Below are positions 27,919 through 64,000 of a stretch of 64,000 nt of DNA, one piece after another (within the stretch, counting starts at the first letter, position 1; each line of letters starts with the position of its first letter). This DNA comes from Arabidopsis thaliana (taxonomy: Eukaryota > Streptophyta > Magnoliopsida > Brassicales > Brassicaceae): positions 15,981,971 through 16,045,970 of the forward strand of contig NC_003070.9 of assembly GCF_000001735.4 (NCBI RefSeq), given 5' to 3'. Both the position numbers and the translations under genes were made by a program. Below the pieces are notes generated by a model. The model saw only the letters and a list, made by a program, of their open reading frames with translations, did not search any database and was not told the DNA's origin.

Positions 27919-28257
27919 TGGTTTATTCATGAAATTATATTCTTTTTTTTTGTAATAATTTCTGATTTAATGTTTAGCATGAAATATTTATATTAATATT
28001 TGGTTTAAATAAAAATTTCTTTATTCAAAATATTTTTTAATTTTATTTTTTTACTGTTTAGATTGTCAATTCGTTATATCAATCTACTTACATGATATTA
28101 ATTTCGTTATATATAATTTCATGAAATTATTAGTTATAAAATAAACTGTCCATCACAACACATCCACAATTTATCAGAAATTTCTATTTAAAATTTAAAA
28201 TCATAAAGTACATATACATAGACCCCTAATCGAAAAACGTTTATACAGTTGAATTTA

Positions 28258-29535
28258 GGAATCAGTCATCAAAATCTTAAGTTATTAAACAAACTATCCA
28301 TAACAACATATCCACATAGAGTTACATAATTTATCCCTATAATTTAATGGTGTTCGTAAATAGTAAAGGCTATCTAGTCAAATCAAATTAAACATATACG
28401 TAAACCTAGACTCTAAGCCATATACCTTAATGACTATACATTAAACCCTAAACCCTAAACCTTAAACCCTAAACACTCAACTCCTAACACTTAACCCTAA
28501 ACACTATAACCTAAACCCCAAACTCTATACACCATTCCCTAAACCCTAAACCTAAATGCATAACCCAAATAACTATAACATCACACTAAACATATTCCTA
28601 ACTCTAGCCTCTCGTGCAAATACCATAAACTGTATACCCTAAAGACTATACAATTAACCCTAAACACTAAATCTTAAACCTTAAACACTATACACTAAAC
28701 CCTAAATCCCAATCCTAAACCATATTCTTAATATGATGTTACATAGTTGTGAATGACATATTTTAATTAAATTCGTTATATCAAAAACAATTTAATGAAT
28801 CAGTCATCAAAATCTTAAGCTATTAAACACATTATCCATAACTACATATCCACAGAGAGTTACATAATTTATCCCTATAATTCAATGGTGTTCGTAAATA
28901 GTAAAGGCTATATAGTCAAATCAAAATAAACATATACCTAAACCTAGACTCTAATCCATCTACCTTAATAAATATTCAATAAACCCTAAACCCAAAACAT
29001 TAAACCCTAAACACTCAACTCTTAACACTTAACCCTAAACACTATAACCTAAACCCCAAACTCTATACACTATACCCTAAATCCTAAACCTAAATGCATA
29101 ACCTAAATAACTATAACATTACACTAAACATATTCCTAACCCTAGCCTCTAATGCAAATACCATAAACAGTATACACTAAACCCTAAACACTAAACCTTA
29201 AACCCAAAACATTTAACCCCAAACTCTATACACTACACCCTAAACCCTAATCCTAAATGCATAACCCAAATAACTATAACATTACACTTAACCCTAAACC
29301 TTAACATCTAAACCCTAAAAAAAAGTTGCTAAACATTAAACACTAACACTAATATTTAAACACTAAACACCAAACCCTAAACACCAATCCCTAAACATTA
29401 AACACTAACACTAATATTTAAACACTAAACACCAAACCCTAAACACCAATCCCTAAACATTAAACCCTAAACCCTAAACCCTATAACCAAAAATATAATT
29501 CCTAAATAAACTTTCCCTAAACCCTAAACCCTAAA
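28258..29535. repeat. Degenerate telomere-like (AAACCCT) array with internal 540-bp duplication
   Basis: There are dozens of AAACCCT-like units mixed with variants such as AAACACT, ATAACC and AAACCTTAAACC. A non-telomeric block (ATCAGTCATCAAAATCTTAAG onward) starts at 28,258 and again at 28,797, each followed by a telomere-like run, so the array has a higher-order unit of about 540 bp. A smaller duplication (TAAACACTAACACTAAT...) is at 29,330-29,450. Confidence 0.85.
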
Positions 29536-30080
29536 AAATAAATAAACTAACAATACTTACCACTAAACCAATTAATCATTATTAAATATAAACATTATCA
29601 CCTATCGTTAGTATTATGGTATCCATCATAACAAAGCCATGTGGTTAGAGAAACCAAAAATAATTCCCTTATATATTAGGGCATATATTGTTCAACTATA
29701 CATATCAACGTGGTCATATACTTAGGCGGAAATTTTCCCCAAAAAAAAATAAAATAAATTATAAATAAGTAAAGGTGCGACTAGGTGTCATATGCTCCAA
29801 AACCTTAAGGATCTATACTATGGTTCCTAAAATAGTTTGTGAGAAAGGTCTGCATGCATTGCCCTGTTCCAAGCAATAATCTCAATCGATTTATCCGTAG
29901 TAGGAGACAACAAACTTCTGGACAGATGGCCGAACTAACTTGTAGTCAATAGCTGGAATCAATCGTTGGGTTACAAAAAAGGTAAGAGCTGATGCTGTCT
30001 TTATAAAAGAGTAAAACGTACGTTTATAAATATTTTAAAATCTGTTTTTATACATGTAGGGGCCGTCAACAAACTTCCAC
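29536..30080. other. Upstream region of F-box-like fragment 1
   Basis: AT-rich with no gene. A GGCGGAAATTTTCCCC stretch at 29,724-29,739 resembles the promoter motif seen upstream of the other family members but does not fully match the E2F consensus. Confidence 0.35.
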
Positions 30081-30612
30081 ATGCCTGCAGGCATTCTTGC
30101 AAAAATTGTTAGCTATATAGCTGAAGGTGGGATTGGTAAGTTAAAGAATTGGATTTTATCCGGGAGGGAGGAAATGGTAGAAGTATTTTCACCAGACTGC
30201 CTGAAATCGGTAAGGTTGGACAAAACTAGAGATTTTGTATATTGGTCCAGCCTTGATAGTGTTTACAATATATATTTTTTTGGAAATGTGTAAAGGCAAA
30301 AAATCCTTATGCCTTGTATGTTCGAAGCCTAGTTTCGGCTTTCCTATTTCTTGACATAGAAGAGGCAATTGAGCTCGCCGCATATGCTAAAGAAGTCTAC
30401 CCACTGGCGTAATTATTATACATTATGTTGAAGAGTTTAGCTGGAAATGAGGACCACGAAGTTTACTCGAATTTTAAAAAGAGATACAATTACTAAGAAG
30501 CAGAGGGATTTTGTGAAACGTTGAAGTTCCACATAAAAACGTTGCCTCCAAATCGGTTTGGAACGTATAGTGAGACGTGGTGTTTCACCGACAACCCAAT
30601 GTGTTGGGAATC
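30081..30612 (+). pseudogene. F-box-like (At2g35280-type) gene copy 1, cut by a Gypsy insertion
   Basis: The start MPAGILAKIVSYIAEGGIGK aligns with copies 2 and 3 (LMEIIVSKVxEDGVDALKN). Later, in shifted frames, come ALYVRSLV-like, EAIELAAYAKEVYPL and FKKRYNY, then ETLKFHIKTLPPNRFGTYSE up to the LTR at 30,613. Several frameshifts and stops are present. This is the F-box plus helical-repeat arrangement of Brassicaceae At2g35280-like proteins, presumed SCF ligase adaptors. The C-terminus is lost at the retrotransposon junction. Confidence 0.7.
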
Positions 30613-31660
30613 TGAAACAACCCGACCCATTTTTTTTTTAAAAAAATATAATGAAATATTCCCATAAATATCTAATTAAACCGCAAGTCAAAAATACTAT
30701 TTTATGAATAAATAAATAATTCGTCCAACAAAACCAAGAATAACTAACAATCCTAACCGGGTTCCAATAACCAAAAACACCAAAAATAAAACAAACGAGT
30801 TCCTAGATCATCCTCTCTTCCTTGCCATGATTCCACGATCACACTTTATCTTTACCTGCATCAACAACACAATGAGATGCGTAAGTATTATCATAAATAC
30901 TTAGTGAGGCGATCCTCCCATCTACGAGCTATACACACAAGCAAATAAAAAGGTATAATCACGAATACAATACAAACAAACCAGTCATTGAACAATTCAC
31001 CCAAAACACATCCACCACACCTACATATCATCACACAAAACAAATCACACAACCCAATCGCTCAGATAAGCTCATGGTCACGCACTCACCTTAACAAATT
31101 GATTCTAATAGCAATTAAACCCAGGAGAGTCTCTCCTTGCGTCTGAAACAATCCAGAAACGTCCTACAACAAGTTCACAACCAAAAGCAACCTTGAAGCA
31201 AACTGGACAGGAAAAACCAGAAACAAGCAGTCTCAAAGACGAAACCCTAAAATACAAACAGACGAGACCACGATCTCAGTTTCAATCTCCGCTGGTCCTA
31301 ATTCGCGTCTGAGAAAACGTGTCTCACGAAACTGCAAATAACTCAACCAATTTTAATCCAAATCCAATTCTGTAAACTGAAGAATAACGATAAAGGACTT
31401 GGGAATAACTCTACCAAATTTCGTTACCTTTTACCACGATTTGATATGACGAAACTGATTTCTCCCAAACCCTAACGATTCTGCTCCTTCTCCTTTTCTC
31501 TCTTTTTCTCCTTTATAAAACGAAAAGTGGCTAACCAAAGCCCTAATTTCGAGTTTCCTTCTTTTATAGGCATACTCTAGGGTTTCCAATTAACCCAACC
31601 AATTAAACCGGATGATTTAAAAACAAACCCTAACCGATTTTCCGGTTCACGGGCGTTACA
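30613..31660 (-). repeat. Left (3') LTR of the Gypsy element, 1,048 bp
   Basis: Bounded by TGAAACAACCCGACC and GGGCGTTACA as read on the plus strand. The host sequence just outside is GGGAATC. The equivalent outer flank on the other side is deleted, so no target duplication can be checked. Confidence 0.9.
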
Positions 31661-31672
31661 ATTCTCCCCCAC
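31661..31672 (-). other. Polypurine tract
   Basis: On the minus strand TGGGGGAGAAT directly precedes the LTR start TGTAACGCCC, the expected plus-strand primer position. Confidence 0.85.
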
Positions 31673-32568
31673 TAACATAGATTCGTCCTCGAATCTAGCT
31701 TCACCCTTCCACTCCGAGGAACTCCGTGCAACCATCACTACAGTCCGCACTCCCTCCAACCAGACCCCCTCTAGGTCTCTCTATCCAGTCGATATACTCA
31801 CGATTTACTAGTCATTGTTGCTCACAACTCACTCTCCACTCTCGGACCGCAATCTTCGAGCATAAACCGTCACTCTCAGGCCTCGGCCTACGGTATCTCG
31901 GGTATCACACATATTATCTTCCCCACTCAAAGTCAAACCCTGAGTTGTGTTGGCTCACTCTCAGCCACAAAGTCATCGAGTTACGACACTTGGAGAAAAT
32001 AATACCACAAAACTCGCTCTCGGGTCGTCACCCTAAAGCGTGCTCTCGGATCGTCACCCGAAGCCACCGTACCCCTCGTACTCTAAAGACACCATGTCCC
32101 TCGAGTTACCGGTACCTCAGGAGCATACCCCGCTCCTCACGAGTCGTTGGGACCCTCATGTCCCTCGAGCAACAATACTAAACGCTTCCGAGCATATCTC
32201 CAGACTCTCTCATGGATTCGCGTAAGACACCTCTATGCCTCACCATCCATCATATCCCCTCGAAAACATCCTTATGACCAACTCCCGGCCATCTCGTAAA
32301 CACACCTTTCTCTTAGGTTGTTTACTCAAACTTTCCGAAAATAGACAAGTCCTTTCTAGGAAACTTTCCATTTTTGGAAACCGCACAACACAATCTTAAA
32401 TAAGACAACTCAAGTCAAATCCAAGAAAAAATACTCATCTTATTAATCATCAACTGTCATGATCGTTACAACTCCAAACGAAAATACAAATGAAAGAGAA
32501 ATAAGAACAACAACTCAAAAGCTCAAAAACTCAACAACACTGAAACTGGAAACCAAGGAAAGGCAAAC

Positions 32569-35424
32569 TCATGCAGCAACCTGCTTCTCGAACCACTTCT
32601 TGAACCTTGCCTTCATCCTCGCCTCTGGCTCCCAAGTCTCCTCTGTCACACCATCGCAGTCCCACAGGACTTTGATCAAAGGAATCTTCTTCCGCCGAAG
32701 TTCCTTGATCCTCCTCTCGAGAACCCTCACTGGTCTCGCCTCCAAAGTCATGTTGGGCTGAAGATCCTCTGGAATCTTAGCCAACACCTCATCATCCTTG
32801 TGAAGACACTTCCTCAGCATCGACACATGAAAGACCTTGTGAAACGCACGCATAACATCAGGCAACTCTAACCTGTATGCCACTGGTCCCACCCTCTCAA
32901 CAATCCTGAACGGACCCATGTACCTCGGACTCAACTTAGTCTCTGAGATAGACCTGTTCGGACCTCGCAACATGGCCATCTTAAGATACACTCTGTCCCC
33001 AACCTCAAACTCAAGCTCTCTCCTCCTCTTGTCAGCATAACTCCGCTGTCGATCCTGAGCTTCCTTCATGTTCAGCTTAAGAACCCGGATCCTCTCTATG
33101 GTCTCCTGAACATAATCTGCACCATATATGCTCCTCTCCCCCACTTGGGTCCAGCATAACGGTGTCCTGCATGGCCTCCCGTACAACGCCTCAAAAGGAG
33201 CCATCCCAATACTCGCCTGATAGCTATTGTTATAAGCAAACTCTACAAGACTCAAGTGATCCGCCCAATGACCTCCCCAATCCTAGACACACATCCGCAA
33301 CATATCCTCAAGCGTCTGAATAGTCCTCTCAGATTGCCCATCTCTCTGTGGATGATAAGCCGTGCTCATCTGCACCTTAGTACCCATCTCTGCCTGAAAG
33401 GCTCTCCAAAATCCAGAAGTAAACTTGGAATCCCTGTCTGACACAATACTCACAGGTACTCCATGCAACTTCACGATCTCGTTCACATATTTCTTAGCCA
33501 ACACCGCCGCTCCATCGGTTTTTCTGATGGCCAGAAAATGTGCTGACTTAGTCAAACGGTCCACGATCACCCAAATAGCATCTTTGGTTCGCGACACAAG
33601 CAACCCAACCACAAAATCCATCGTGATAAAATCCCACTTCCACTCAGGAATGGGTAAACTCTGCAACATGCCACCTGGCACCTGATGCTCAGCCTTAACT
33701 AACTGGCAAACATTGCAGTCTGCAACCCAATTAGCTACATCCCTCTTCATCCCTACCCACTGATAGTACCGCTTGAGGTCTCGGTACATCTTAGTCGCTC
33801 CTGGATGAATGGAAAACATGCTCGCATGAGCCTCACTCAAGATCTCCCGTCGCAACTCCTCATCCTTAGGCACACAAACTCGCTCATGCACAAGGATAGT
33901 CCCATTAGCTGCAAACTGATACTCAGAGCCCTCTACCTTAGAAGCCGCAATCAACCCCTCATCCTTCTCCTGAGCCAACCGAACTCTAGTCAGAAGATCT
34001 GCTCGATCCACGAGTTCCAATCCCAATGGCTCTCGTGCCACAGCACACAACCGCAAAGCACCAATCTCACTCACCAAGGCCTCAACACTCTGCCCTGGAG
34101 CCGCGCCCACGCGCTTACGGCTCAACGCGTCTGCAACCACATTAGCCTTACCAGGATGGTAAGCTATCTCCAGATCATAATCAGCCACCAGCTCCATCCA
34201 TCGCCTCTGCCTCAGGTTCAGCTCTGGCTGAGTGAAGATATACTTCAAACTCTTATGATCCGTGAACACCTGCACTTTCCCACCATAAAGATAAGACCTC
34301 CAAATCTTCAAGGCAAAGATTACTGCAGCCATCTCCAAATCGTGAGTAGGATAGTTGCCCTCATGCTTCCTCAACTGTCGTGATGCATAAGCAATAACCT
34401 TCCCACGCTGCATTAAAACACAACCCAAACCAACTCTCGAGGCATCAGTATACACCATGTAAGGCTGTCCATGCTCTGGCAATGCTAACACTGGTGTACT
34501 CGTCAACATCTCCTTCAGGCTCACGAAACCCTCCTTGCACTCCGGTGACCACACAAAAGGAACATCCTTCCCTGTCAGCTTAGTCATCGACTGTGCCATA
34601 CTCGCAAACCCCTTGACGAACCTCCTGTAATACCCTGCCAACCCAAGAAAACTCCTGATCTCAGTGGCATTCGTCGGTCTAGGCCAATCTCTGATAGCCT
34701 CAATCTTCTCTGAATCCACTGAAACTCCCTCTGCAGAAACAATGTGACCCAGAAAACCCATTTCTCTCTGCCAGAAACTGCACTTACTCAACTTAGCGAA
34801 CAACTTCTACTCCCGCAGCTTCTCCATCACTCTCCTCAGATGTACCTCATGCTCCTCAGGACTCTTAGAATACACCAGAATGTCATCAATAAAGATGATC
34901 ACAAACTCATCCAAAAACTCCTGGAACACGCTGTTCATCAACCTCATGAACACTGCAGGTGCATTAGTCAACCCGAAAGGCATCACCACGAACTTAAAAT
35001 GTCCATATCTCGTCCTGAAAGCAGTCTTGCGAACATCTGCCTCCGCTATCGGGATCTGGTGATAACCCGACGTCAAATCGATTTTGGAGAAACAAGTAGC
35101 ACCCCTCAACTGATCCAACAACTCATCGATCCTTGGCAAAGGGTACTTGTTCTTCACAGTGACCTGGTTCAACCCTCGGTAGTCAATACATAAGCGGAAA
35201 CTCCTGTCCTTCTTCTTCACAAATAACACCGGCGCTCCCCAAGGTGAAGTACTAGGACGAATGAATCCCTTACCCAATAAATCCTCTAGCTGCTTCTTTA
35301 GCTCTGCCATCTCTGCTGGAGCCATCCTGTAGGGTGCCTTAGACAACGCCGCTGTCCCTGGTTCCAACTCAATCATGAAAGGATCAGACCGTGATGGTGG
35401 TAATCCCTGCAACGATTGAAACAC
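32569..35424 (-). pseudogene. Gypsy pol: RT, RNase H, integrase, chromodomain
   Basis: A single reading frame is interrupted only by stops at 34,807-34,809 and 33,283-33,285. Reverse transcriptase occupies the first 200 codons ([31 protein letters not shown] with the FIDD active site). RNase H follows ([29 protein letters not shown]). Integrase has its HHCC zinc region (H...H...CNVCQLVK) and the catalytic core ([24 protein letters not shown]). The C-terminal KLSPRYMGPF and PVAYRLELP motifs and a chromodomain-like end (VLWDCDGVTEETWEPE) place it in the Tekay/Del lineage, whose chromodomain directs insertion to heterochromatin. The two stops make this copy defective. Confidence 0.93.
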
Positions 35425-35984
35425 ATCCTCGAACTCCTGAACAACCCGAATGCCTCGCAGCCCTTCTCGATCATTTTCTCTGCCTGCACTGCTGAGATGA
35501 CGAGACTCCCTGAGATACGTCTCACTCCCTGATAAACCAACCTTCCCTCTGGCCGCTCAAAAGAAACTCTCCCACGGTGGCAGTCAAGATGTACTCTGTA
35601 ATGATCCAACCAATCCATTCCCAGAATAACATCATACAACTCTACAGGGCTGATAATCAAATCTGCTGGCATTGACTCCCTTGCAATCTGAATATCTACA
35701 CCCTTCGCTCTCTCCAGAACCGCTAGAAACTGCCCTCCAGCAACCTTGACGTGGAGATGTCCCCTCTCCCTGCAGTGGTAGCACTCCCTCGTCTCAGCTC
35801 GCTGCGTGCAACCCGCCACCTTGTGGTCAAGGCTCCCACAAGAAAAACATCCTGCACGACCACCCTGGCCAGCTCTGGAAGGATGATCCCACTTCCTCTT
35901 CTGCCCCTGCGCAGGCTTGCTGCCCTTGCTAGGTGCCACCTGCTGCTGAGTCTTCTTCGGTTGTACCGCTGGACTCACTCCCAC
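35373..35984 (-). pseudogene. Gypsy zinc knuckle and aspartic protease region
   Basis: The gag-derived CCHC knuckle (CFSCGSLDHKVAGC) is followed by a second truncated knuckle (CYHCRERGHL) and then protease-linked sequence (LIISPVELYDVILGMDWLDH). It is in a different frame from both the upstream gag and the downstream pol, so frameshifts lie near 36,005 and 35,450. The usual D-T/S-G protease motif is not visible, suggesting a deletion between the knuckle and the protease. Confidence 0.85.
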
Positions 35985-36007
35985 CTCCTGCCTCTGAAGG
36001 TCCTCCT

Positions 36008-36901
36008 CTACCTCCTGTCTCCACCAGTGCCGCCTTCGTGGCGTACCCTCAAATCCGGTCGAAGTCCCCTCAAGAACCTCCTCATCTGGGCCTGGTCATC
36101 CTCCATGCCCCGACCCGCATACACCAAGAGTCGGTTAAACTCCCGGTCATACTCCCGAACCGACCGCTCACCCTGTGTCAGCTCAAGAAAACGCGCCTCC
36201 ATACGGTCGAGCGCCTCCGGCAGAAAGTACTTGGCATTAAACTCAGCCACGAAATCTGCCCAAGACATATCCGCCTGCCTCCTCCTGGCAGTCACACTCC
36301 GCCACCACAAATGTGCATCCCCCTCTAGAAAATGCACTGCTAGATCTACCCGATACTCCGCCGAGCATCTGCTCGAACCGAAGTTCCGCTCAACCCGCGA
36401 CCTCCAACTGTCGGCCTCCTCAGGACTAGTACCACCAGAAAAATAACCGGTGCCAATCCTCTGCAACTGCTCCATCATCCTCAAATAAGATGGAACCTCC
36501 TCAGCAACCACAGCCCGCTGCTGCACCTCCGCCACTCGTGGCGCAACTGGAGCCTCCACTGGTACCACACCTGGTAACCGCTCCAACAACTGCCTCAACA
36601 GGCCCGCCAAACCAACCTCTGGAATCTGGGCTCCTCCGGCTGCAGCACCCATCAATCCTGGGCCCTCAGCACCAACGGCATACACACCGGTACCGACACT
36701 AGCTCCACCAGCCCCCACTCCGGCTGCACCAGCTATATCGGCACCAAGACCGTTTCTAACCCCGGGCTCCACAAACTCAGGCTGCGAACCCACACTCTGC
36801 TCAACTGTGGCACTGTGGCCATCACTCTCGCCGGTACCCTCGAGGACTCGTCCCCTACCGCGACCACGACCACGACCACGAACTCTAGCTCCTCTAACCA
36901 T
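36008..36901 (-). pseudogene. Gypsy gag (capsid) region
   Basis: The start at 36,901 opens an Arg-Gly-rich N-terminus, then a Gly/Ala-rich linker. The conserved retrotransposon gag domain follows at about residues 150-290 (YFSGGTSPEEADSWRSRVER, LEGDAHLWWRSVTAR, FNAKYFLPEALDRMEARFLE). The frame is open to about 36,010, where it leaves the zinc-knuckle frame. Confidence 0.9.
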
Positions 36902-37137
36902 CTGCGCTACTCAAGAACAAATGGCTAAGAAACTAAAACAAACGAATATATTACAAACAACTTACCGTGGAATCTCATTTAAGGCTCGGAGAAGATGATG
37001 CTAGGACTCCAACAACACACAATTGACTAAACACTCCATAATCAATCCTCAATATGCTAACACCCTATCTCATCCCACATCAATCAACAGGAAAATAATT
37101 CATCAATTAATTTTTCTACACATCCTAGAACCGTAAT

Positions 37138-37150
37138 CGCTCTGATACCA
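37138..37150 (-). other. tRNA-Met primer-binding site
   Basis: Minus-strand TGGTATCAGAGCG lies three bases inside the right LTR, matching the usual initiator-tRNA primer site of plant retrotransposons. Confidence 0.92.
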
Positions 37151-37153
37151 AAT

Positions 37154-37723
37154 TGAAACAACCCGACCTATTTTTTTTTTTTTTAAAAATATAATTAAAT
37201 ATTCCCATAAATATCTAATTAAACCGCAAGTCAAAAATACTATTTTATGAATAAATAAATAATTCGTCCAACAAAACCAAGAATAACTAACAATCCTAAC
37301 CGGGTTCCAATAACCAAAAACACCAAAAATAAAATAAACGAGTTCCTAGATCATCCTCTCTTCCTTGCCATGATTCCACGATCACACTTTATCGTTACCT
37401 GCATCAACAACACAATGAGATGCGTAAGTATTATCATAAATACTTAGTCAGGCGATCCTCCCATCTACGAGCTATACACACAAGCAAATAAAAAGGTATA
37501 ATCACGAATACAATACAAACAAACCAGTCATTGAACAATTCACCCAAAACACATCCACCACACCTATATATCATCACACAAAACAAATCACACAACCCAA
37601 TCGCTCAGATAAGCTCATGGTCACGCACTCACCTTAACAAATTGATTCTAATAGCAATTAAACCCAGGAGAGTCTCTCCTTGCGTCTGAAACAGTCCAGA
37701 AACTACCTACAGCAAGTCCACAA
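37154..37723 (-). repeat. Right (5') LTR of the Gypsy element, truncated
   Basis: Only the inner 570 of 1,048 bp is present; sequence corresponding to 31,175-31,660 of the left LTR is missing. The break joins directly to a block duplicated at 38,252, so the deletion also removed the rest of F-box-like copy 1. Confidence 0.88.
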
Positions 37724-37841
37724 CAATAATCCATTGGTTTATACAAATAGTGTAAATATATATATATATATATATATATTTGTAATAAGAAAAGAAGCTA
37801 TTTGACCATTGTTTCCTGTCTACGTTTGAGAGGGAAATTTG

Positions 37842-37849
37842 CCGCCAAA
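37842..37849 (-). promoter_or_regulatory. E2F-like site, duplicated block copy 1
   Basis: Minus-strand TTTGGCGG fits the E2F consensus WTTSSCSS. It lies inside a conserved GAGAGGGAAATTTGCCGCC context found upstream of several members of this gene family. Confidence 0.4.
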
Positions 37850-38356
37850 ACAATAGATCCTCAAGTGGTTGGAATACTGAAAAAATATACATCCTCGTTT
37901 AGCCTATTATGTATCTATGTTCATATGAAAGTATTTTAAGGTTCTCACGCAGTCTGAATATTGGCAACATATACCAAGGTTATGAAAAGTGAAGGTAACA
38001 TCATTGTCTTATCTCATTAATAAAGTTGAATTAAAAAGAAATAATAAAGAATTTATAATCTTTTACAAATCGACACTGACATATCCATGTTTCTATAAAC
38101 ATCTAATAATTAAATAAAGTGCCAATGATACACTAGGGTCTGGTATATGAATAGTTCCCATTGTCACGTGGATAGTACTTATCTTTTTTTTGTTTAAACC
38201 CATATATATCTATCACACTTATCCATGGCAATGATACATTATAACACAACTAATAATCCATTGGTTTTAAAATTGTGTAGAAATATTTTTATTTTTTGTA
38301 ATAAAAAAGAAGCTATTTGACCATCGTTTACTGTCTACGTTTGAGAGGGAAATTTG

Positions 38357-44086: not shown

Positions 44087-44914
44087 TTGTTTAGTTTGTT
44101 ATCCATATAAATTTATAATTAAATGAGGAAAAAACATAATAGTGGATATGTCTAGAAAGTAGCATCGGAAGGACAGACGTGTTGACGATGGGTCCCTTGA
44201 TGTGTAGCTTCACAAATAATATCCAACAGATAAATCAATGTAAAGGGTGTCAGTAGAAAGTGAAAACCTGACGTATTAGATCTAAAAAGAACGAATAGAT
44301 TATGATATCTACTGCAAAAAGGGCTAAGGTTATAGTGTTTAGGGTTATAGTGTTTAGGGTTAAGAGATTCCCTAATTTCCCTCATTCGGAATCCATGGAA
44401 AACTATCCACATTATTAAATCAGCATTAATAAAACATTTTGTTCAACATGATATATTTGATATAAATTTCAGGTGTCCATGAATACATATCGACTTGAAC
44501 TTTGTTTAGTTTAGTTTGTTATCCATATAAATCTATAATTGAATGAGGAAAAAACATAATAGTGGATATGTCTAGAAACTAGCATCAGAAGGACAGGCGT
44601 GTTGACGATGGGTCCCTTGATGTGTAGCTTCACAAATAATATCCAACAGATAAATCAATGTAAAGGGTGTTAGTAGAAAGTGAAAACCTAACGTATTAGG
44701 TCTAAAAAGAACGAATAGATTATGATATCTACTGCAAAAAGGGCTAAGGTTATAGTGTTTAGGGTTATAGTGATTAGGGTTAAGAAATTCCCTAATTTCC
44801 CTCATTCGGAAAACTATCCACATTATTAAATCAGCATTAATAAAATATTTTGTTCAGCATGATATATTTGATATAAATTTCAGGTGTCCATGAATACATA
44901 TCCACTTGAACCTT
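44087..44914 (+). repeat. Tandem duplication, 2 x about 415 bp, with telomere-like motifs
   Basis: Copies at 44,087-44,503 and 44,507-44,914 are more than 95 percent alike; copy 2 lacks about 12 bases at the ATCCATGGA segment. Each contains a tandem pair of GTTATAGTGTTTAGG-type units, the reverse complement of the variants in the array at 28-29.5 kb. Antisense frames of 83-86 codons in both copies are by-products of the repeat. Confidence 0.9.
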
Positions 44915-46620: not shown

Positions 46621-49600
46621 AATTTCCTAAGTTGATTGTCAGCCCGACCCAATGCTGGTTTTTCCAAATCATTGGCATCACGATGAGGTCAATTTCTTCA
46701 ACCAAACTGATGGAGAACCAGGAATGGTCCGCTTGAACTGGTTATTCCATTGGACGCGCAACTTATTTTTTGCAGATTGAAAGGAACGGTATTTTCCTTG
46801 TAGATAATTGCCCAACCAAGGTTTGATAATGACTGCGCGTTCTTTAGAGAGTGTCAATTTGTGCCATTCATTAAGGAAACTTCCTAGTACCTCCATGTGC
46901 TGCAAGTTGTTTAGCATGAATCATGTAAGTAGCATATTGATCCGCATGAACTAAAATGAGTTAATAGAAGTTTGTTTTACCATGGTATCAACCCAATTGG
47001 TCGGCTGTGCAAGCTGGAGCAAAAATCTGTGGGATATCACAATATCACCACGAGTGATGTGTTCCCTGAAATTATTAAGTAATTTTAGTTTTTCGATAAA
47101 GCATCAACAGATAGAGAAAAGTTAAAAGGGTAATCAAATTACTTATGAGGCTCCTTCTAAAGGGTGTCAATGAAATCTTTGAAATTTGTTTTGTCCAAAG
47201 TAGGAAACAAATCAATCTGATCCGTGGGGGGAGCATTTGGGTTTTTTTTTTGCAAAAACAAAACAAGTTGGGCTTCTTTTTAAGTGAAAGCGGTTGACAA
47301 CTGTTCCGTTGCAGGTGATGAATCACTGACTTCAACATAAGCTCCACTATTGGCGGGAACATCCTAAGATGTTATAAATGAAATTTAATATTTTGAGAAT
47401 GCCATAAATAAACCACCATTCCAAATGAGCAGCAGAAAATTCTACCTCTTCATCATCGTTTTCAATTTCATCATCTTCTTTATGATCATCGTCTTTTTGA
47501 TCATTTGGGTTTTTTTTGCAAAACAAAACAAGTTGGGCTTCTTTTTAAGTGAAAGCGGTTGACAACTGTTCCCTTGCAGGTGATGAATCACTGACTTCAA
47601 CATAAGCTCCACTATTGGCGGGAACATCCTAAGATGTTATAAATGAAATTTAATATTTTGAGAATGCCATAAATAAACCACCATTCCAAATGAGCAGCAG
47701 AAAATTCTACCTCTTCATCATCGTTTTCAATTTCATTATCTTCTTTATGATCATTGTCTTTTTGATCATCTTCTTTTTTATCATCCTACAAGGGAAAGAG
47801 GGTATAAAGTGAGTTATCCACGAAGTTAATTATATCCACAATTAAGAATCCATATAAAATACGTAGTCCACGTGGATAATGGATGATAATGTTACCTGTG
47901 GGTTGATGGGTGGTTCCCATTATATAAATTCAAGACTCTCTTTCCTGACCTCATCGGATGCAGCAACTGAAGAACTTATATTCTTGCACACTGTGTCAAG
48001 CAATGTGTCTACATTTTCAGCCAAGGACAAGTCTGAACTCTTAATCTCCTAGATAAGATAGAAGATGTATAACATTAGCATATGAGTAACATCCATTCTA
48101 AGAAACTCAAAGTAAAATGAAAACAGAAGGAGGTCGAAGAAAACCTCGGTAACATCATTAGGAGATGGTTTCGTTGCGGTATCGAAAACAGCAGGAGGTC
48201 GAGGAGAAGGCAGATGCTAAGGTAAAATGCAAATGTAGTTAGGTATATAATAGTTACATATTATGGACTTGAAACCGATATTGAAAAATTTACCTCGTCT
48301 CAAGATTTAGACTCAGTATCATAGATTGGTTGATCAGAGGGAGGGAGCTCGGTGCTATTAGCAGATATAAATTTGGGTAATATAACTGATGGAGTTTCAT
48401 CCTGAAAAGGCATATGCACATAATATATGACCAACATTATGTGGGGAACAAAATATGAAAGAACTTCATAACAATTACCAGATGCTTCTGTGGGGAACAA
48501 ACTGAATCCTTGCAGGTCTCCATGGATATCTTTTTCCATAACTGATCATCAACAATATTATCGGAATTTTCTGAGACTGTTTCGTCTCCAGCATGCATCG
48601 AAACATTGACCCCCCTTCCAATGACGTTAATGGTGGTGAAGGGGGAGTTATGATGTTTGTCGCCTCTACACCAGTGTTGACAGGAGATTGAGAGACTGTG
48701 CAGAGGTTTGTTTGGATGCGTACTTTCTTGAACGGATGATGAGTAGCCGGCCTGGACCTGTAAGATTGCAGGAGCCTGATCTTTTTCAGAAGATTTAGAT
48801 TCTCAGATCTTAACTTCTTAACACTCTCCGTAAATTCATGTCTTATAGAAGAAAACTGAGACTTCACCCACAATTTAATGTCTTCTCCTTCATTAGCCTT
48901 ATCTGTTGCTTCATCATCATTATCTTCTGCTTCATCATCATCAACCAATTCTAACTTACGCTTCCAGCCTCGCGTGGATGTACTAACTTTTGTTTTTGAT
49001 GGAGTTCTTTTAGAAGAAGAAGTTGGCGAAAGTTTCTTTTTCCTGATAACTATATATTTCTTGTGTTGTACTACAGGCTCCTTTTCATTGACATAAATGA
49101 GCGGTAGATCAGCATAACCACCAGGCCACTCCTTTTTGGTGAAATTATGGCATTTGCTTATCTGTTTAATCAAATAAAGAACCTTCTTGTCTCTCACTTC
49201 ATCATCCCACTCACCCCAACCATCCTCATTGGTGTTTACAGACAGCATAGGGATAACAGTCATCTGAAGAAACAAACTCAGAAAATTAGACCTACTAAAA
49301 ATGTCATGAAAGCACATGAAAGAAAAGGTACAACAACAATGATTACAATTACTTACATCAGGAACACGTTCAAGGAGATGAACATCGTTGATAGAAAGAT
49401 TGTTTTTCGGTATCCCAATTGAATGTCATTCCAAAAAGGTTCTCTCATCTGCAGAACCAGGAATTTGTCCAGTAGACCAGAAATGTTCCTATAAGCAAGA
49501 AGGTGCAGGGCTAAGGGAAAGCCATAAATAGCTATACTTTGCTGTTGCATCTGATTTGTGAATTGTTGGATGGGATCTTCTAGCTTGATTCCAAGACGAG

Positions 49601-56562: not shown

Positions 56563-56927
56563 TGATATAACCCGATTTTCACCGATTTTATCTATGTTTT
56601 AGGTATACGATTTTGAGTCTTTATGTTATTTCTCGAGTCTTTTTAGTGTCTTTTCAGGTATTCTATGCAGTGGGACAATAATGGAGATAAGGAGACATTT
56701 TGGAGCAAAAGTTAAGGAAAAGAGCTAAGGACGATTTTGGTTCAGGAATCAGCGAGGAGTGTCGATCGACACACTCTTGGTGTCGATCGACACCAGTTTC
56801 GGCCCAGCAGAAGTCCATGACGCTTTCAAGTTTACAAAAGAGGAAATTTGCCCCAGAAGACTTTCCTATTTGCATTATTAGTCCCTGGACGTTTTTAGGG
56901 TTTTATATATATTGTTTTTAGACCTAA
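56563..56927 (+). mobile_element. Athila-like LTR, part left of the Harbinger insertion
   Basis: Starts TGATATAACCCGATTTTCACC and contains two TGTCGATCGACAC palindromic motifs at about 56,760-56,800, well known in Brassicaceae Athila-type LTRs. It runs to GACCTAA at 56,927, where the Harbinger TIR begins. The LTR resumes at 63,366. Confidence 0.7.
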
Positions 56928-57221
56928 GAGCAAGTCTAGTAAGGGTTTTTAGTAGATTTCTTAGATGGGTTTCTATGTTAAAATGGGCCCAGATGATAGA
57001 AAAACAGTTGAATCCATTTACGATCGTTCCTAAAATTGGGTTTTTCGCGACCCAATAGAAACTCATACGTGGCCTCATTTAATTGGATAAACTGATTGAC
57101 AAAACCAAAAAAAAAACCTACACGCTTATTTTTTTTTTCTTCTCTCTCTCTCTTCTTCTTCTTCGCCGACGACAGAGACACCAAAGACGATTGATTTCAA
57201 ATCGATTCTCTTCGTTCCGCC

Positions 57222-57803
57222 ATGGAATGCAGCATCAAGCTCGAGAAATCTCTTCGTTCTAAAAACCCAGGTCCTTCAAATACTTCGGCTTTTCAACTTC
57301 ATAGTTCCTAGAAATTTTTAAATTTCAGCTCCTCTTGTTTTTTCACATTAAGCAAACCTCTAAATTTTGCAGTTTTCTCTGATAGTCCGATACATGATTA
57401 AGTAGGTTGCTTTACTTTACTTTAGTTGGCGAATGTATGTTCTTGTTGTCTTCTCTGAGAGTATGAAAGTATAAAGTTTTGATTTTTGGGTGATGTTATT
57501 TCAGTTAAAGCCGTTGAAGCTATCTTAGAGACTAGTGATAAGCTTGAGCAGTGGAGCAAAGAACCAGAATCTGCTATTGATTACTGTTTACAATTTATTT
57601 GGTTCTTGGAATTGCTTACACGAGTGAAGAATCAGCAAGTTGGTTCTTGGAATTGCTTACACGAGTAAAGAATGTGTATGATAAGGGTGATAATGAGTCT
57701 AAAGCGTTGGCTTTGATTCTGTTTGGTTGTTGGAGAGATTTTGTTGGTGAATTTGCTCCTGTACGGTTAATTGGTTTTCAGCAGTACGGTTTCTCCTCAT
57801 GAT
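57222..57803 (+). pseudogene. Captured fragment 1: unidentified plant gene, 5' exons
   Basis: The sequence MECSIKLEKSLRSKNPG ends near 57,270 at a possible donor. A second exon from about 57,506 reads VKAVEAILETSDKLEQWSKE, PESAIDYCL, then, after a 41-bp tandem duplication, FLELLTRVKNVYDKGDNESK, ALALILFGCWRDFVGEFAPV. It looks like conserved helical protein, but I do not recognise the family. More gene-like sequence (GGFATKV, NPKAKVVVSLRSNA) is near 57,960-58,050. It lies between the left TIR and ORF1. Confidence 0.6.
57599..57680 (+). repeat. 41-bp tandem duplication in captured fragment 1
   Basis: TTGGTTCTTGGAATTGCTTA and the following CACGAGT(G/A)AAGAAT occur at 57,599 and 57,640. The duplication disrupts the captured reading frame. 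Confidence 0.85.
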
Positions 57804-58380
57804 CTGGAGGTAAGCATAGTTCATTTTAGGTTTTTGTTTGATGTTTTTGCTTCGGAGTTTCTGTTATGAAGGCTAAAAATTTGATACTTAATATATGTAG
57901 TGGTTGCAGCATAGATCGTTTTAGTAAAGTTTTGTTTCTATATTTTATCTGAGGTTATTTGGAGGATTTGCAACAAAGGTTGCTGCTTGTTGATTGGATA
58001 TAATCCAAAGGCAAAGGTGGTTGTTAGCTTGAGATCAAATGCAAGGTAATTTATCATTTTGTATTTATTTGCTGTGATCAATGCTTTGCTGTTATTTACT
58101 GTGATAAATGCTTCTTGGTTGATATAAAACTGTTGTTAGGTAAACGTCAATTGCTCTTGTAGGTAAACGTCAAATGCTAGTTCTTATAGCATTTAAAACT
58201 GTAAAACTGTGATGATTGCTTGGTAGGCTAATTTAAATCAATAGTATTTAGTGTGGCATTGATTGTGAGCTGTCTAACAAAGCCATAATTTGCCTTTAAA
58301 ACACAAAACCGTAACCTTTGATTTTTAAAACACAAAACCGTAACCTTTGATTTTTAAAACACAAAACCTGAAACAAAGAT

Positions 58381-59334
58381 ATGGATTCACCAAATCCATA
58401 TCATCATACTTCAAGCTTTATAAACCTTTTGAACAGTCAAGATGACAGTCACATTCTCCCACCAAATCCATATGAATGCTTTGAACTTGGATCAGCAAAT
58501 GTCCCTGTGTATAGCACTGAGTGGTCTGATGATGATCCAAGTGAAGATGAACTACCAATTGCTGGGAAGAAAGGGAAAAAAGGGAAGAAAGCCAAGAAAC
58601 CAAGGAGGAATTGGTCATCAACTGAAGATGTTGTTCTCATAAGTGGGTGGCTGAACACTTCCAAGGATCCGGTGGTGGGCAATGAGCAAAAGGGGGCAGC
58701 TTTCTGGGAACGTATAGCAGTCTACTACAACTCAAGTCCCAAGCTCAAAGGTGTGGAAAAGAGAGGCCACATATGCTGTAAACAAAGGTGGTCAAAAGTG
58801 AATGACGCTGTGAACAAGTTTGTAGGGAGCTACTTGGCTGCTAGCAAACAACAAACAAGTGGTCAAAATGATGATGATGTGGTGTCTTTGGCACATCAGA
58901 TCTTCTCAAAAGATTATGGCTGCAAGTTTACTTGTGAGCATGCTTGGAGGGAGCGTAGATATGATCAAAAGTGGATTGCTCAGTCTACTCATGGGAAAGC
59001 AAAGAGAAGAAAATGTGAAGCTGACTCTGAACCTGTTGGCGTTGAAGACAAGGAAGCTCGTCCCATTGGTGTTAAGGCGGCAAAAGCCGCAGCCAAAGCC
59101 AAAGGCAAAGCCAAGCTAAGTCCGGTAGAAGGTGAAGAAACCAATGCTTTGAAGGAGATACAAAGTATATGGGAGATAAAAGAGAAGGATCACGCTGCCA
59201 AAGAGAAGCTAATCATTATTAAAGACAAGAAAAATAGGACTAAGTTCTTTGAGCGTCTGTTAGGGAAAACAGAACCTCTATCTGACATAGAGATTGAACT
59301 TAAGAACAAGTTAATCAATGAGTTGTTGGCTTGA
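58381..59334 (+). CDS. Harbinger ORF1: Myb/SANT trihelix plus NAM-associated C-terminal domain (intact)
   Basis: A complete 317-codon frame with no break. Residues 1-75 are a low-complexity, acidic and Lys-rich N-terminus. Residues 77-160 form the trihelix/Myb-like DNA-binding domain (RRNWSSTEDVVLISGWLN, FWERIAVYYNSSP, CCKQRWSKVNDAVNKFVGSY). Residues 190-317 are the NAM-associated region (ARPIGVKAAKAAAKAK, LKEIQSIWEIKEKDHAAKEK, LSDIEIELKNKLINELLA). Such proteins are often labelled glutathione S-transferase T3-like in plant annotations, but they are the accessory DNA-binding protein of PIF/Harbinger elements, needed in the nucleus with the transposase. It is the best preserved TE gene in the window. 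Confidence 0.93.
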   Translation: MDSPNPYHHTSSFINLLNSQDDSHILPPNPYECFELGSANVPVYSTEWSDDDPSEDELPIAGKKGKKGKKAKKPRRNWSSTEDVVLISGWLNTSKDPVVGNEQKGAAFWERIAVYYNSSPKLKGVEKRGHICCKQRWSKVNDAVNKFVGSYLAASKQQTSGQNDDDVVSLAHQIFSKDYGCKFTCEHAWRERRYDQKWIAQSTHGKAKRRKCEADSEPVGVEDKEARPIGVKAAKAAAKAKGKAKLSPVEGEETNALKEIQSIWEIKEKDHAAKEKLIIIKDKKNRTKFFERLLGKTEPLSDIEIELKNKLINELLA

Positions 59335-59892
59335 GTTTCAGTTGTAGGTTTAGTGTCTGTTTCTAGATTATGGTTGTCTAAGTGTCTGTTTTAACTCTGT
59401 TTTTATGTTAGTGTCTGTTTTAAGTGTGTTTTAATGTTTATGTCTGTTTTAGTCTATGTTTTATGTTTAAGTGTATGACTTTGGCACTTTCTGTTTCAGT
59501 TTATGAGTTTGAGTTATGTTGTTTCTGTTTCACTTTCAGTTTCAGTTTCACTTTCAGTTTCAGTTTCAGGAAATGGATTCTCTTGTGTTGTTGTTGTTTT
59601 TACGCAGGAGTGACAAACACTTGGTCTTTACTCTTCTTCTTCATTTTGGTTTTTTACTGATGCAAAACATGTGAGAAAGAAGAAAATGAATCTCGATGCA
59701 ATACAGAAGCAGAAACTGATGCTTCTTCCTCAGACACATCTTGAGGTTAACTTGTTGAAATAAAATCAAAAGGGAATTAGCTCTTTGCAACAGTGTAAGG
59801 TTTTCTTGGACTCCTATGTTTCTCTTTAGAGAGAGAGAACTTTTTGTATTCTTTTGGTTTGCTCAATTATATTACATGTGAATTTGTCATAG
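59335..59892. other. Spacer after ORF1
   Basis: A T-rich 3' region with repeated GTGTCTGTTTTA and TTTCAGTTTCACTTTCAG units (59,345-59,570). A short unassigned coding-like piece follows near 59,685-59,750 (NLDAIQKQKLMLLPQTHLE); it may be another captured scrap. Confidence 0.4.
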
Positions 59893-59982
59893 GACGAGTC
59901 TGCATTAGTATGGTACTCTGGCAAAGAAGAGAAGCAGATTAAGCTGAGTCAAGTCCTGAGAATTGTTCCTGGACAACGCACG
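59893..59982 (+). pseudogene. Captured fragment 2: exon of a PH-RCC1-FYVE (PRAF) gene
   Basis: A single 90-bp exon with acceptor (CATAG) and donor (GTGAGT) reads DESALVWYSGKEEKQIKLSQ, VLRIVPGQRT. This is the second half of the PH domain of plant RCC1-repeat/FYVE proteins of the PRAF family, phosphoinositide-binding regulators. The exon is open throughout. The flanking exons of the parent gene are not present. Confidence 0.82.
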
Positions 59983-60251
59983 GTGAGTTTCTCTCTGCAA
60001 TATTCATGTATGCTCATAAACAAGTACAGTTCCTTAGTTATAAGTTAGTGTTTGAAATATGTTTCTATACCATTTCAAGTTTTCAACTAAGCAACTTTCA
60101 TACTAATATATTGCATATTTTCGTGCCTCTGTAGTATTAATATAGCGTGGGACTAAATCTATTGAAAATAGTGGATTGGTTGAAAGAATGAGTTCTTCCA
60201 CTTTGTGCATCTTAAAGTGTTTTCTTATCACAAGATTTCTTTTTCATCCAG

Positions 60252-60839
60252 CGGAGAGAGTGGAGCAGGAAAGACTGAGACAACAAAGATAGCGATGCAA
60301 TACTTGGCTGCTCTTGGAGGTGGAAGTGGGATCGAGTATGAGATACTAAAGACTAATCCCATCTTGGAAGCATTTGGAAATGCAAAAACATTGAGAAACG
60401 ATAATTCTAGTCGTTTTGTAAGCGTCCAAACTCCTTGTTTACTCTTATTTCTTTTACTCTGTGTCTTTAAAACTTCTGGGTCTTTATTTATCTCTTAATC
60501 TTTCTCTGATGTTAAATTTGACAGGGTAAGTTGATAGAAATTCATTTTAGTGAAACAGGGAAGATTTCGGGTGCTCAAATTCAAACATGTAAGCATAAAC
60601 CTTAGTGCTGCTTCACACATTTTTTTCAATTTTCCTTTACAAAATCTAACAGCTTTTTTCTTGTTGTCTTATATTTTGCAGTTTTACTAGAAAAGGTAAA
60701 TTCCTCAATATTTTTGCTGCTTCAGTTTCTTTCATGTTGAAAAACGATTCTTAATATTGACATCCTTTCATGTTCTGTTGTCACACTTTAATAGTCAAGA
60801 GTGGTTCAATGTACGGAAGGAGAAAGGTCATATCATATA
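60252..60839 (+). pseudogene. Captured fragment 3: four exons of a class VIII myosin motor
   Basis: Exons 60,252-60,417, 60,525-60,588, 60,682-60,695 and 60,795 to about 60,839 join in phase with GT-AG borders and no stop. They encode the P-loop [20 protein letters not shown], then [20 protein letters not shown], the switch I region [40 protein letters not shown] and EGERSYHI. This is the nucleotide-binding core of the plant myosin VIII (ATM1-like) head. The parent's actin-binding, IQ and coiled-coil parts are absent. Retained introns show capture at DNA level. Confidence 0.92.
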
Positions 60840-61213
60840 TTGTGCATGATAGTAAAGAAGATCAAGAAAGTGTATTTGCAATTTTTGCTGCAGTATATAG
60901 ACGCTCGTGAATAATGGAAAACCACTATTAAACCTGAGATCACTTCAGCAGGAATGTCCAACCCCTCATGCACGAAGAGTGTCTCCATTTGTAACAATAC
61001 TTGTGAGTAACACCACGTTTCATGTTTAAGCGTATGTAGGTAAGTATTGTTTCTAACCAGAAGTGAATAATATAGAAGGTCTTGGCAATCATCTGATTTA
61101 CGGCTTGGTTTTGATTGAAGCAATTTGGTTCAGATTGGTTTGCTTACCAAGATATATGAATGAATGACTTGTTTTAGCTATAAGCATCTTTAATACAGAA
61201 CTGTTGTATACGT

Positions 61214-61335
61214 GCTGGAGGACTGGGTTTGCTGCAATTCTGCAACCTGAATAGCTTCAGGACATTGTTCATACTGGGCTTCTCAATCTTCCTAGGCCTA
61301 TCAATTCCACAATATTTCAACGAGCACACAACCAT
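61214..61335 (+). pseudogene. Captured fragment 4: exon of a nucleobase-ascorbate transporter (NAT)
   Basis: The reading frame GGLGLLQFCNLNSFRTLFIL, GFSIFLGLSIPQYFNEHTT matches the highly conserved membrane segment and QYFNE motif of plant NAT/NCS2 purine-ascorbate permeases. It ends after about 40 codons and diverges. It lies between the myosin exons and the transposase, in the same orientation. Confidence 0.85.
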
Positions 61336-61784
61336 CAGCGAATGGGCTCTATGATTGCTCTGGTTCATAGCGTTGGAAAATTCTTCCTTCTTCACCAGTA
61401 CACTACACCACATAATAATATAAAAACAATGTTGTCTTCTTTCTTTTTTAGTCTCCAAGTGTTTGCCATTCTTTAGTGCCGACATCAAGTACTTTAGTTT
61501 GTCACCAAAGAATGTACTTTAGTTTTGTCACCACAAACTTGATTGTTCTTTTCATTTGAACCATTCATTATTGTACCATTTATTTGCACCATTCACTACT
61601 CTTTTATTTTGTATGAATGAATGTACACCGAATAAAAAGAATCCGAACACTACTCCTTTATTGTTCTATATATAATCTGAACACTACTTCAATATTTCTA
61701 TCAACTTTCTTTATCACAATAATAAACACTCTTTTCTATCAAATCATTTTTATCTCTTCTCTCTCTTTCTATAATTTTGCTAAA

Positions 61785-63071
61785 ATGGCAGGTTCTTCTT
61801 CAAACTATAATCTCGACGACATGTTCGATGATAAGTTTGATCAATGCTTTGATCAAGCATTAGAGAGTTATGGTAATCGCCAACGAGTCAAGCCAAGGAA
61901 GAAAAAACTTTATATCGAAAGAAATCGTGAAGAAGGTCACATCCAATTAGTGAACGACTATTTTACAGAGAATCCAACATATCCTCCCCATATATTCCGA
62001 CGCCGGTTTAGAATGAACAAATCGTTGTTCATGCGTATTGTTGAGAGATTCTCCAATGAAGTCCCATACTTTAAACAAAGAAGAGATGCCACCAGAAGAC
62101 TCGGTTTCTCGGCACTACAGAAGTCTACAGCAGCAATTCGTATGCTCGCATATGGTATTGCGGCTGATGCGGTTGATGAATACCTCTGAATTGGTGAAAG
62201 CACGTCGTTGTTATGTTTGGAACATTTTGCAGAAGAAATCATAAATCTGTTCGGGGATGAGTATCTAAGAAGACCCACACGAGATGATCTTATACGACTT
62301 CTCCATATTGGAGAGCAACGTGGATTTCCCGGGATGATAGGAAGCATCGACTGTATGCATTGGGAGTGGAAAAATTGTCCCACCGCTTGGAAAGGACAAT
62401 ATACACGTGGATCAGGAAAACCAACAATCGTTTTAGAGGCCGTTGCTTCACAAGATCTCTGAATATGGCACGCGTTTTTTGGACCTCCATGTACCTTAAA
62501 CGATATCAATGTTCTTGACCGCTCACCAGTTTTTGATGATATATTACAAGGTCGAGCTCCAAAAGTGAAATACGTAGTCAACGGGAAAGACTATAATTTG
62601 GCTTACTACCTCACAGATGGAATTTATCCTAAATAGGCTACATTTATCCAATCAATTTCAATTCTACAAGGTAATAAAGCTTCTTTATTTGCTACAACTC
62701 AAGAAGCTTGTCGTAAAGATGTTGAGCGTGCTTTCGGAGTTTTGCAAGCTCGGTTTGCCATTATCAAACATCCAGCTCTTTTTCATGATAAGGTGAAAAT
62801 TGGCAATATTATGCGAGCATGTATAATACTTCACAATATGATAGTAGAGGACAAACGAGATGGTTACACTCAGTTTGATGTATCTGAATTCGTACATCCA
62901 GAATCAGCTAGCTCTTCACAAGTGGATTTCACTTATGCTACAGTTATGCCTTCAAATCTCGGTAATATGATGGCCACTGGAGCTCGAGTTCGTGATCGGA
63001 TTAAACATGAAGAATTGAAAGCTGATTTAGTTGAACATGTATGGCAACATTATAACCAGAATCAATCTTAA
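61785..63071 (+). pseudogene. PIF/Harbinger transposase (DDE), one frame with three nonsense codons
   Basis: A single 428-codon frame runs from ATG at 61,785 to TAA at 63,071 with no frameshift. An N-terminal helix-turn-helix-like region (HIFRRRFRMNKSLFMRIVER, RDATRRLGFSALQKSTAAIR) precedes the DDE core: GMIGSIDCMHWEWKNCP (first Asp), FGPPCTLNDINVLDRSPVF (second Asp) and DVERAFGVLQARFAIIK (Glu). In-frame stops occur at 62,187 (TGA), 62,460 (TGA) and 62,635 (TAG). Each sits where a CGA or TGG codon is expected, so all three fit C-to-T or G-to-A transitions. It is defective but very recently so. Confidence 0.93.
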
Positions 63072-63365
63072 AATGTACTCGTTTTTTTTTCGCTTTTAAA
63101 TATGTTTTTTTGCTTCTTCTTTCTATATCATGTATGTTTAAAATTTTATAATTCTTAATAATAATCATATTTGCTCAAATGAAAATATTTAACAAATTTT
63201 CTTTTTTCAAAATTTTTTTGTTTTAGAAACCCACTTAAGAATTCCACCAATGGACCATAAAATTTCCAAAAACTCTTAAAAATTTCTAAACTACAAAACT
63301 ATCCAAATCTATTAATAAAAAATACATAGAAACTATACTTTAGAAACTAATCACTGGATTTGCTC

Positions 63366-64000
63366 TAAGTTTCTTTTATCATGTCTTTTATCAAGTTCTC
63401 TGCAAACCCTATTGTGAAAGACATAAGCTATTCATCTCCTGTTCTTGACAGATTCACTCCAGTTATTAATACAGTGAAGAGATCTTTTCTAACTCTTATC
63501 TCCTTTGCAGTGTTTATGCTTTCATACTCAATTATGTTGATTGTTTCATTCAATATATCTGAGTAATCTGCTTGTTAGGAATAAGGTTTCTCATTAGGGA
63601 TTCATATGGTTTAGTAGATTGCCCCCTTTGCTAGGTTATCTGTAGAATTCTTCATCTTTAATTATGCTTAATGCTAGATTTAGAGTAATTAACTAGATCT
63701 TGAATCCAGACAATAGATATGCCCGCCATAGGTATCTGTAGTTGGATCTATTATTTGATGAGTCTGGTTTATAGGTGTGTAATAAGAATTTGCCTATCTA
63801 CTAAGATGAACAATTGAACTCGTTAAAAATGCCTATTTAGGTTGATAGTTTCTCGGCTTCTCCGGTTATTATTAGCTATGGATATAGGGAGTTTCACGGC
63901 ACGCCCACCGGTTATTCCATAATTAGAGTTTTAGTTTAAGAATGGTTCGATAACAACCTAACTTTTATTAGATCTACTAACCAATAGTTTCCTGAGAATA
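63366..64000 (+). mobile_element. Athila-like LTR, continuation right of the Harbinger insertion
   Basis: Sequence resumes after the TAA duplication with the T-rich, low-coding character of the LTR and runs to the window end. Its middle (ATGCCCGCCATAGGTATCTG) and CACGGCACGCCCACCGG have no coding frame. The LTR end and any internal domain lie beyond the window. Confidence 0.55.

Follow-up and report, generated by a model that had tools for sequence, protein, structure and literature searches.

DNA from six unlinked loci inside a transposase-bearing PIF/Harbinger element of Arabidopsis thaliana, and a record of capture across its family

We analyzed a 64,000-bp stretch of Arabidopsis thaliana chromosome 1 (the window; C1:15981971-16045970), in which positions 56928-63365 are occupied by a 6,438-bp PIF/Harbinger element, here named W. 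The prefixes C1 to C5 denote chromosome coordinates, and the genome-wide DNA searches covered 119,662,809 bp in 7 contigs. A sequence-only reading of this DNA had proposed a PIF/Harbinger element with matched terminal inverted repeats (TIRs) and a TAA duplication, carrying pieces of several host genes. The features of W, in window positions, are the following.

56925-56927, no strand: left target-site duplication, TAA
56928-57193, + strand: 5' terminal region, common to other copies; the TIR is its first 13 bp
57215-57604, + strand: Integrator subunit 7 (INTS7) piece 1; donor on the C4 minus strand
57646-57906, + strand: INTS7 piece 2, 94% identical to the donor
57912-58380, + strand: the element's own leader upstream of ORF1, common to the sibling C5:13004466-13009800
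58381-59334, + strand: ORF1, 317 aa, uninterrupted (coding codons 58381-59331); no Pfam family above cut-off
59335-59644, + strand: the element's own ORF1 3' flank
59645-59773, + strand: piece taken from a B3-domain gene on C2 or from DNA next to it, 82-100% identity
59757-59793, + strand: PRAF leader piece (C1:26222466-26222503), overlapping at its start with the B3 piece
59792-60098, + strand: PRAF exon and introns, 304/307 identical to C1:26222859-26223165
60096-60896, + strand: myosin motor piece comprising exons and introns (C1:18651969-18652762, C1:18653177-18653236), flanked by PRAF pieces
60897-60912, no strand: 16-bp filler between the myosin piece and the last PRAF piece
60913-61027, + strand: last PRAF piece (C1:26223498-26223611)
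61030-61337, + strand: nucleobase (NAT) permease pieces (C5:20338383-20338118), split by 48 bp of non-donor DNA
61349-61457, + strand: piece of locus C1:20993270-20993378
61454-61784, + strand: the element's own leader upstream of the transposase
61785-63071, + strand: transposase gene (Plant_tran), with in-frame stops at 62187, 62460, and 62634
63072-63365, + strand: 3' terminal region; the TIR is its last 13 bp
63366-63368, no strand: right target-site duplication, TAA

The proposed boundaries held. TAA stands on both sides of W, the tips match at 11 of 13 bp, and similar tips occur in other copies. The insertion site lies in a high-copy repeat: all 40 scored places (40 of 277 candidates, the site of W included) extend to one base or less from the insertion point. 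An empty repeat copy about 12 kb away (C1:16050400, our locus L085) gave a gap-free 240-bp alignment to the joined flanks of W with a single TAA, so that the insertion of W and its duplication, of the 3-bp TWA type of PIF/Harbinger elements, are well supported. The ends of W also recur genome-wide next to 3-bp duplications, which argues against TIRs that match by chance. Nine copies including W were compared, C2:9716959 being outside this comparison. Identical TAA or TTA duplications flank six of them (W, C5:13004466, C1:3262076, C5:9231429, C1:2029761, and C5:24301396). The duplications of C4:690519 (TTA) and C5:10755551 (TGA, which is not TWA) can be recognized only by assuming that a single terminal base was altered, and C5:20966888 is without an intact duplication.

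W carries two genes of its own. ORF1, which had been called intact, is open over 317 aa and is a candidate, by its position, for the second gene of PIF/Harbinger elements, which is Myb/SANT-like; a meaningful Pfam match was absent. The transposase frame contains three in-frame stops and zero frameshifts, and 'near-intact', as it had been described, is a fair term. Its second and third open pieces matched PF04827 Plant_tran (E 1.4e-33 and 4.1e-31), the first piece was unmatched, and PF13359 DDE_Tnp_4 (E 4e-4) scored under the curated cut-off. W thus carries a PIF-type DDE transposase. In the closest relative, the sibling C5:13004466-13009800, both genes are present in the order seen in W, each interrupted. 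ORF1 is recognizable yet interrupted in two relatives, and C5:10755551-10760145 is a more distant one.

Captured DNA accounts for 2,382 of the 6,438 bp of W and was traced to six unlinked source loci on chromosomes 1, 2, 4, and 5. It is placed in two slots, one before ORF1 and one between ORF1 and the transposase. The PRAF, myosin, and NAT permease parents named by the sequence-only reading were all found at the DNA level, introns included, and the fourth segment, which it had left unnamed, corresponds to INTS7; it had overlooked the B3-gene DNA and the piece of C1:20993270-20993378. The INTS7 donor is C4:10858524-10859310, on which Pfam INTS7_N (E 7e-5) scored under the curated cut-off. The B3 donor DNA (C2:10495977-10496296) lies partly upstream of the B3 frame, and its piece is the cargo of W most diverged from its donor (16/122). 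At the PRAF-type donor on C1, the next long open frame has six RCC1 stretches. The myosin piece shows 13 mismatches in 804 aligned bases to C1:18651969-18653236; it scored 83 bits to Myosin_head in W and matched myosin motors in the PDB, and we take the donor to be of class VIII, following the naming in the earlier reading. The permease piece is 94% identical over C5:20338118-20338352, with Pfam scores under cut-off, and the 48 bp between its parts (61055-61102) had no donor match in the alignments. A 34-bp direct repeat (97%) was also noted at 57599-57673, in the INTS7-derived segment where donor sequence is missing.

Since introns are kept in the captured pieces, they were copied from DNA, as had been proposed, and capture through spliced RNA was rejected; a stretch of about 200 bp of B3 sequence missing from W is continuous DNA in C4:690519. 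The parents are unrelated and mutually non-adjacent, and an arrangement of neighboring parent genes was rejected because the donors are unlinked. We also considered a chimeric protein in which the PRAF and myosin exons are spliced together and discarded it, as the join is out of frame and meets a stop after eight codons. Overall, the reading of W as a PIF/Harbinger element whose cargo was copied at the DNA level from unlinked places in the genome is supported.

The expected empty site and other copies with the same ends were found, whereas copies sharing the whole cargo were not: a genome search in which 13 of 13 candidates were scored (counts being lower bounds) gave no second copy, and propagation of the whole cargo to other loci was rejected. 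Among the family copies, W cargo is shared as single segments only. The earlier reading overlooked that capture is a habit of the family. Inner DNA was searched in seven copies (W and six others, C5:10755551 and C5:9231429 being left out), and in the six only inner DNA not in common with W was searched. In each of the seven, pieces were found that match two or more unrelated loci elsewhere; the gene status of donor loci was checked for part of the sources. C5:20966888 holds PRP31 sequence (33/794 bases differ; the donor has Nop and Prp31_C) beside a piece of a UPF0172 gene, C4:690519 holds B3 gene pieces flanking a kinase piece, and C1:3262076 matches C1:30049541-30050619, C3:7548598, and C5:6922332. 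The kinase donor and a phosphatase-like donor (L077, without a Pfam match) are putative and so named from motifs in their translations.

Several pieces recur between copies. The UPF0172 piece is common to the sibling and C5:20966888, two cargo pieces are common to C1:2029761 and C5:24301396, and B3 DNA is common to W, the sibling, and C1:2029761. Shared cargo was probably inherited, and its presence indicates that copies moved after capture. The five searched copies other than W and the sibling match the 3' part of W at the terminal region only, not at the transposase. The cargo ran in the gene-sense direction for eight of the nine donors with a readable direction (two-sided p 0.039), the ninth, the kinase piece of C4:690519, being antisense; we set this bias aside as too weak.

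The joins between pieces show an excess of shared bases. We scored 24 junctions and called clean those with at most 2 mismatches; nine with at least 3 mismatches or filler were dropped before the test, one of these also being the same junction as in C1:2029761, and the breaks inside INTS7 and NAT, the element-INTS7 join, and the B3-PRAF join were outside the scoring. The 15 clean junctions share 3.4 bp on average (range 0-6), compared with 0.81 in simulated joins of donor DNA, and 0 of 100,000 resampled means were as high. Shared lengths of at least 3 bp occurred in 10/15, against 7.7% under the null. The excess was seen in the nine clean junctions between different donors or between donor and element (mean 3.0 bp, p 7.5e-5), in the six within a donor (mean 4.0 bp, p 4.5e-5), and in W alone (four clean junctions, mean 3.5 bp, p 5e-4). 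Some joins are themselves shared: W and C1:2029761 have one junction inside the B3 DNA in common, and C1:2029761 and C5:13004466 have another.

Three copies contain a piece of one donor enclosed by pieces of another. W has PRAF-myosin-PRAF, C4:690519 has B3-kinase-B3, and the sibling has C5:2135-C3:6458-C5:2135; in this last case the C3 piece is just 73-87% alike, and the second C5:2135 piece moves backward along its donor. The pieces of W also fall into layers of divergence. PRAF (9/458) and myosin (13/804) are equally diverged from their donors (p 0.66), and both are closer to them than the INTS7, NAT, and C1:20993270-20993378 pieces together are to theirs (58/965, p 1e-7); capture ages differ within W. 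With 7e-9 per site and year as an assumed rate, these values would correspond to about 1.3 and 4.5 million years; as the rate is an assumption and constraint is ignored, only their order is used. The element's own DNA is likewise uneven. Between W and the sibling, the difference is 2-3% in the genes and the 3' end, 5.7% in the leader, 14.7% in the 5' end, and 15% in the ORF1 3' flank, and the 5' end of W is closer to C1:3262076 (6.8%, p 0.006). Judged by these divergences, W is a mosaic of family lineages.

Based on these patterns, we consider it probable that the family was once autonomous and that its inner DNA has been replaced repeatedly during break repair, by serial gap repair with template switching led by microhomology. 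This process would explain the joins, the sandwiches, the divergence layers, and the mosaicism together. Excision or another break in the element would start it, and synthesis refilling the gap from a homologous copy would lose its template. The strand would then prime at an unlinked locus where a few bases happen to match, and copy tens to hundreds of bases; further switches, sometimes returning, could follow before the element is finally rejoined. The PRAF, myosin, PRAF order would most simply reflect one switching event. If the TIRs survive, the altered element would remain mobile and carry the captured piece. Microhomology and gap filling are signs published for animal Pack-TIRs (PMC8277862). 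Polymerase theta is a candidate enzyme, having been linked in the literature to repair of this kind in both Arabidopsis and animals.

We infer serial gap repair, and the data do not discriminate between a gap left by excision and a stalled fork. Fork stalling and template switching (FoSTeS) in a resident element, independent of excision and followed later by transposition, would produce the same joins and patchwork, and a FoSTeS-like route combined with transposition has been proposed for multicopy animal Pack-TIRs (PMC8277862); the sandwiches and family mosaicism fit both routes, which are indistinguishable here, and we regard the stalled fork as unlikely. Aberrant excision of two close insertions, in which complementary ends are lost and the hybrid traps the intervening chromosomal DNA, is the mechanism given for A. 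thaliana Pack-CACTA in a 2026 review (PMC13317346). It is difficult to reconcile with six unlinked sources, with non-contiguous PRAF pieces flanking myosin, and with cargo lying between ORF1 and the transposase. By our reasoning it also does not predict the bases shared at the joins. In the one accession examined, the DNA around the parent loci gave no match to the TIRs or ORFs of W, and the cargo was not contiguous with neighboring insertions at the donor loci; this origin appears very improbable. The several divergence classes might suggest pieces that arrived one at a time as other nested mobile elements, and a chimeric misassembly may be thought of as well. The alignments showed neither target duplications nor foreign ends flanking the pieces, although no systematic search for these was made. 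Misassembly would not yield the junctions shared by W with C1:2029761 and by C1:2029761 with C5:13004466, and the same pattern is present in 7/7 searched copies, so that nesting or misassembly is scarcely credible.

Several observations weigh against serial gap repair with template switching. The junctions that are not clean make up 9/24 of those scored, including 4/8 in W (myosin-PRAF, PRAF-NAT, NAT-C1:20993270, and INTS7-element), and those within one donor might have arisen by later deletion. A sandwich could also record two events. In C4:690519 the inner piece looks younger (11/443 versus 24/407, p 0.015), which suits two events over one. The older cargo of W is more diverged (58/965, 6.0%) than the non-coding DNA beside the transposase is between W and the sibling (19/620, 3.1%, p 0.008), yet it is absent from the sibling, which requires either an exchange involving a third lineage or its loss in the sibling.

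We are evenly divided on a wider proposal for this family, in which capture would not be a mishap of dead, non-autonomous copies but a standing by-product of repairing transposase-bearing elements. The two inner slots would serve as cassettes that are exchanged and refilled through serial template switching led by microhomology, and the offspring would be stripped Pack copies. If this is true, it would provide one route, based on repair, by which pieces of unlinked genes are captured.

Elsewhere in the window, strong strand asymmetry was observed at 28001-38000: of ten 1-kb steps, nine have a GC skew between -0.26 and -0.53 and the other has -0.03. The G+C content reaches 0.57 at 36-37 kb. A telomere-like TAAACCC array (28980-29483) adjoins the skewed region. 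Two-copy tandem duplications are located at 44089-44911 (420-bp unit, 94%) and 47234-47769 (265-bp unit, 97%).

The present family bears on how TIR elements acquire fragments of unlinked genes: it is small, lies in a well-mapped plant genome, and retains layered, sandwiched, and microhomologous junctions from many donors; Arabidopsis also has repair mutants suited to testing the cause. The 2026 review allows that, besides aberrant excision, a further undiscovered capture mechanism may exist (PMC13317346), and a 2020 Arabidopsis review gives MULE and CACTA as the sources of Pack-like structures there (PMC7385966). A description of the Arabidopsis family of W was not found among titles and abstract openings on Harbinger gene capture in the open-licence literature.

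The sequence-only reading was right that capture is much less known for PIF/Harbinger elements, although a precedent exists. Capture by transposase-bearing PIF elements is not new: grapevine Pifvine-3 elements with ORF1 and a transposase carry host exons and introns (PMC2528002). Like W, they combine both genes with exons and introns of unrelated host sequences, of which some are common to several copies; unlike W, their cargo occupies a long 5' region, and the available part of the account is without junction analysis, age layers, or sandwiches. What is new is a capturing PIF family in Arabidopsis, for which a published scan had listed none, and a legible record, kept in the junctions, of capture from genes that are unlinked. 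That Pack-TYPE scan gave no new Pack superfamily in A. thaliana and classed elements with any transposase match as autonomous (PMC8903248), a blind spot for elements that keep a transposase. W has host coding DNA between its TIRs, as Pack-TYPE elements do, and it and the sibling both contain transposase sequence; the five copies without a transposase match would fit the Pack-TYPE definition. The rice and maize Pack-TYPE Harbinger-PIF elements resemble W in their PIF TIRs, mostly TTA/TAA duplications, and captured coding DNA, and differ in that the transposase is absent by definition (PMC8903248). Turmoil-1, a Harbinger element of C. elegans, also carries pieces of two unrelated genes, but within long inverted repeats (PMC2572040). 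The Pack-MULEs and Pack-CACTAs of Arabidopsis and rice are, like W, TIR elements that move gene fragments (PMC7385966, PMC13317346), whereas they belong to other superfamilies and the mechanism proposed for Pack-CACTA is aberrant excision.

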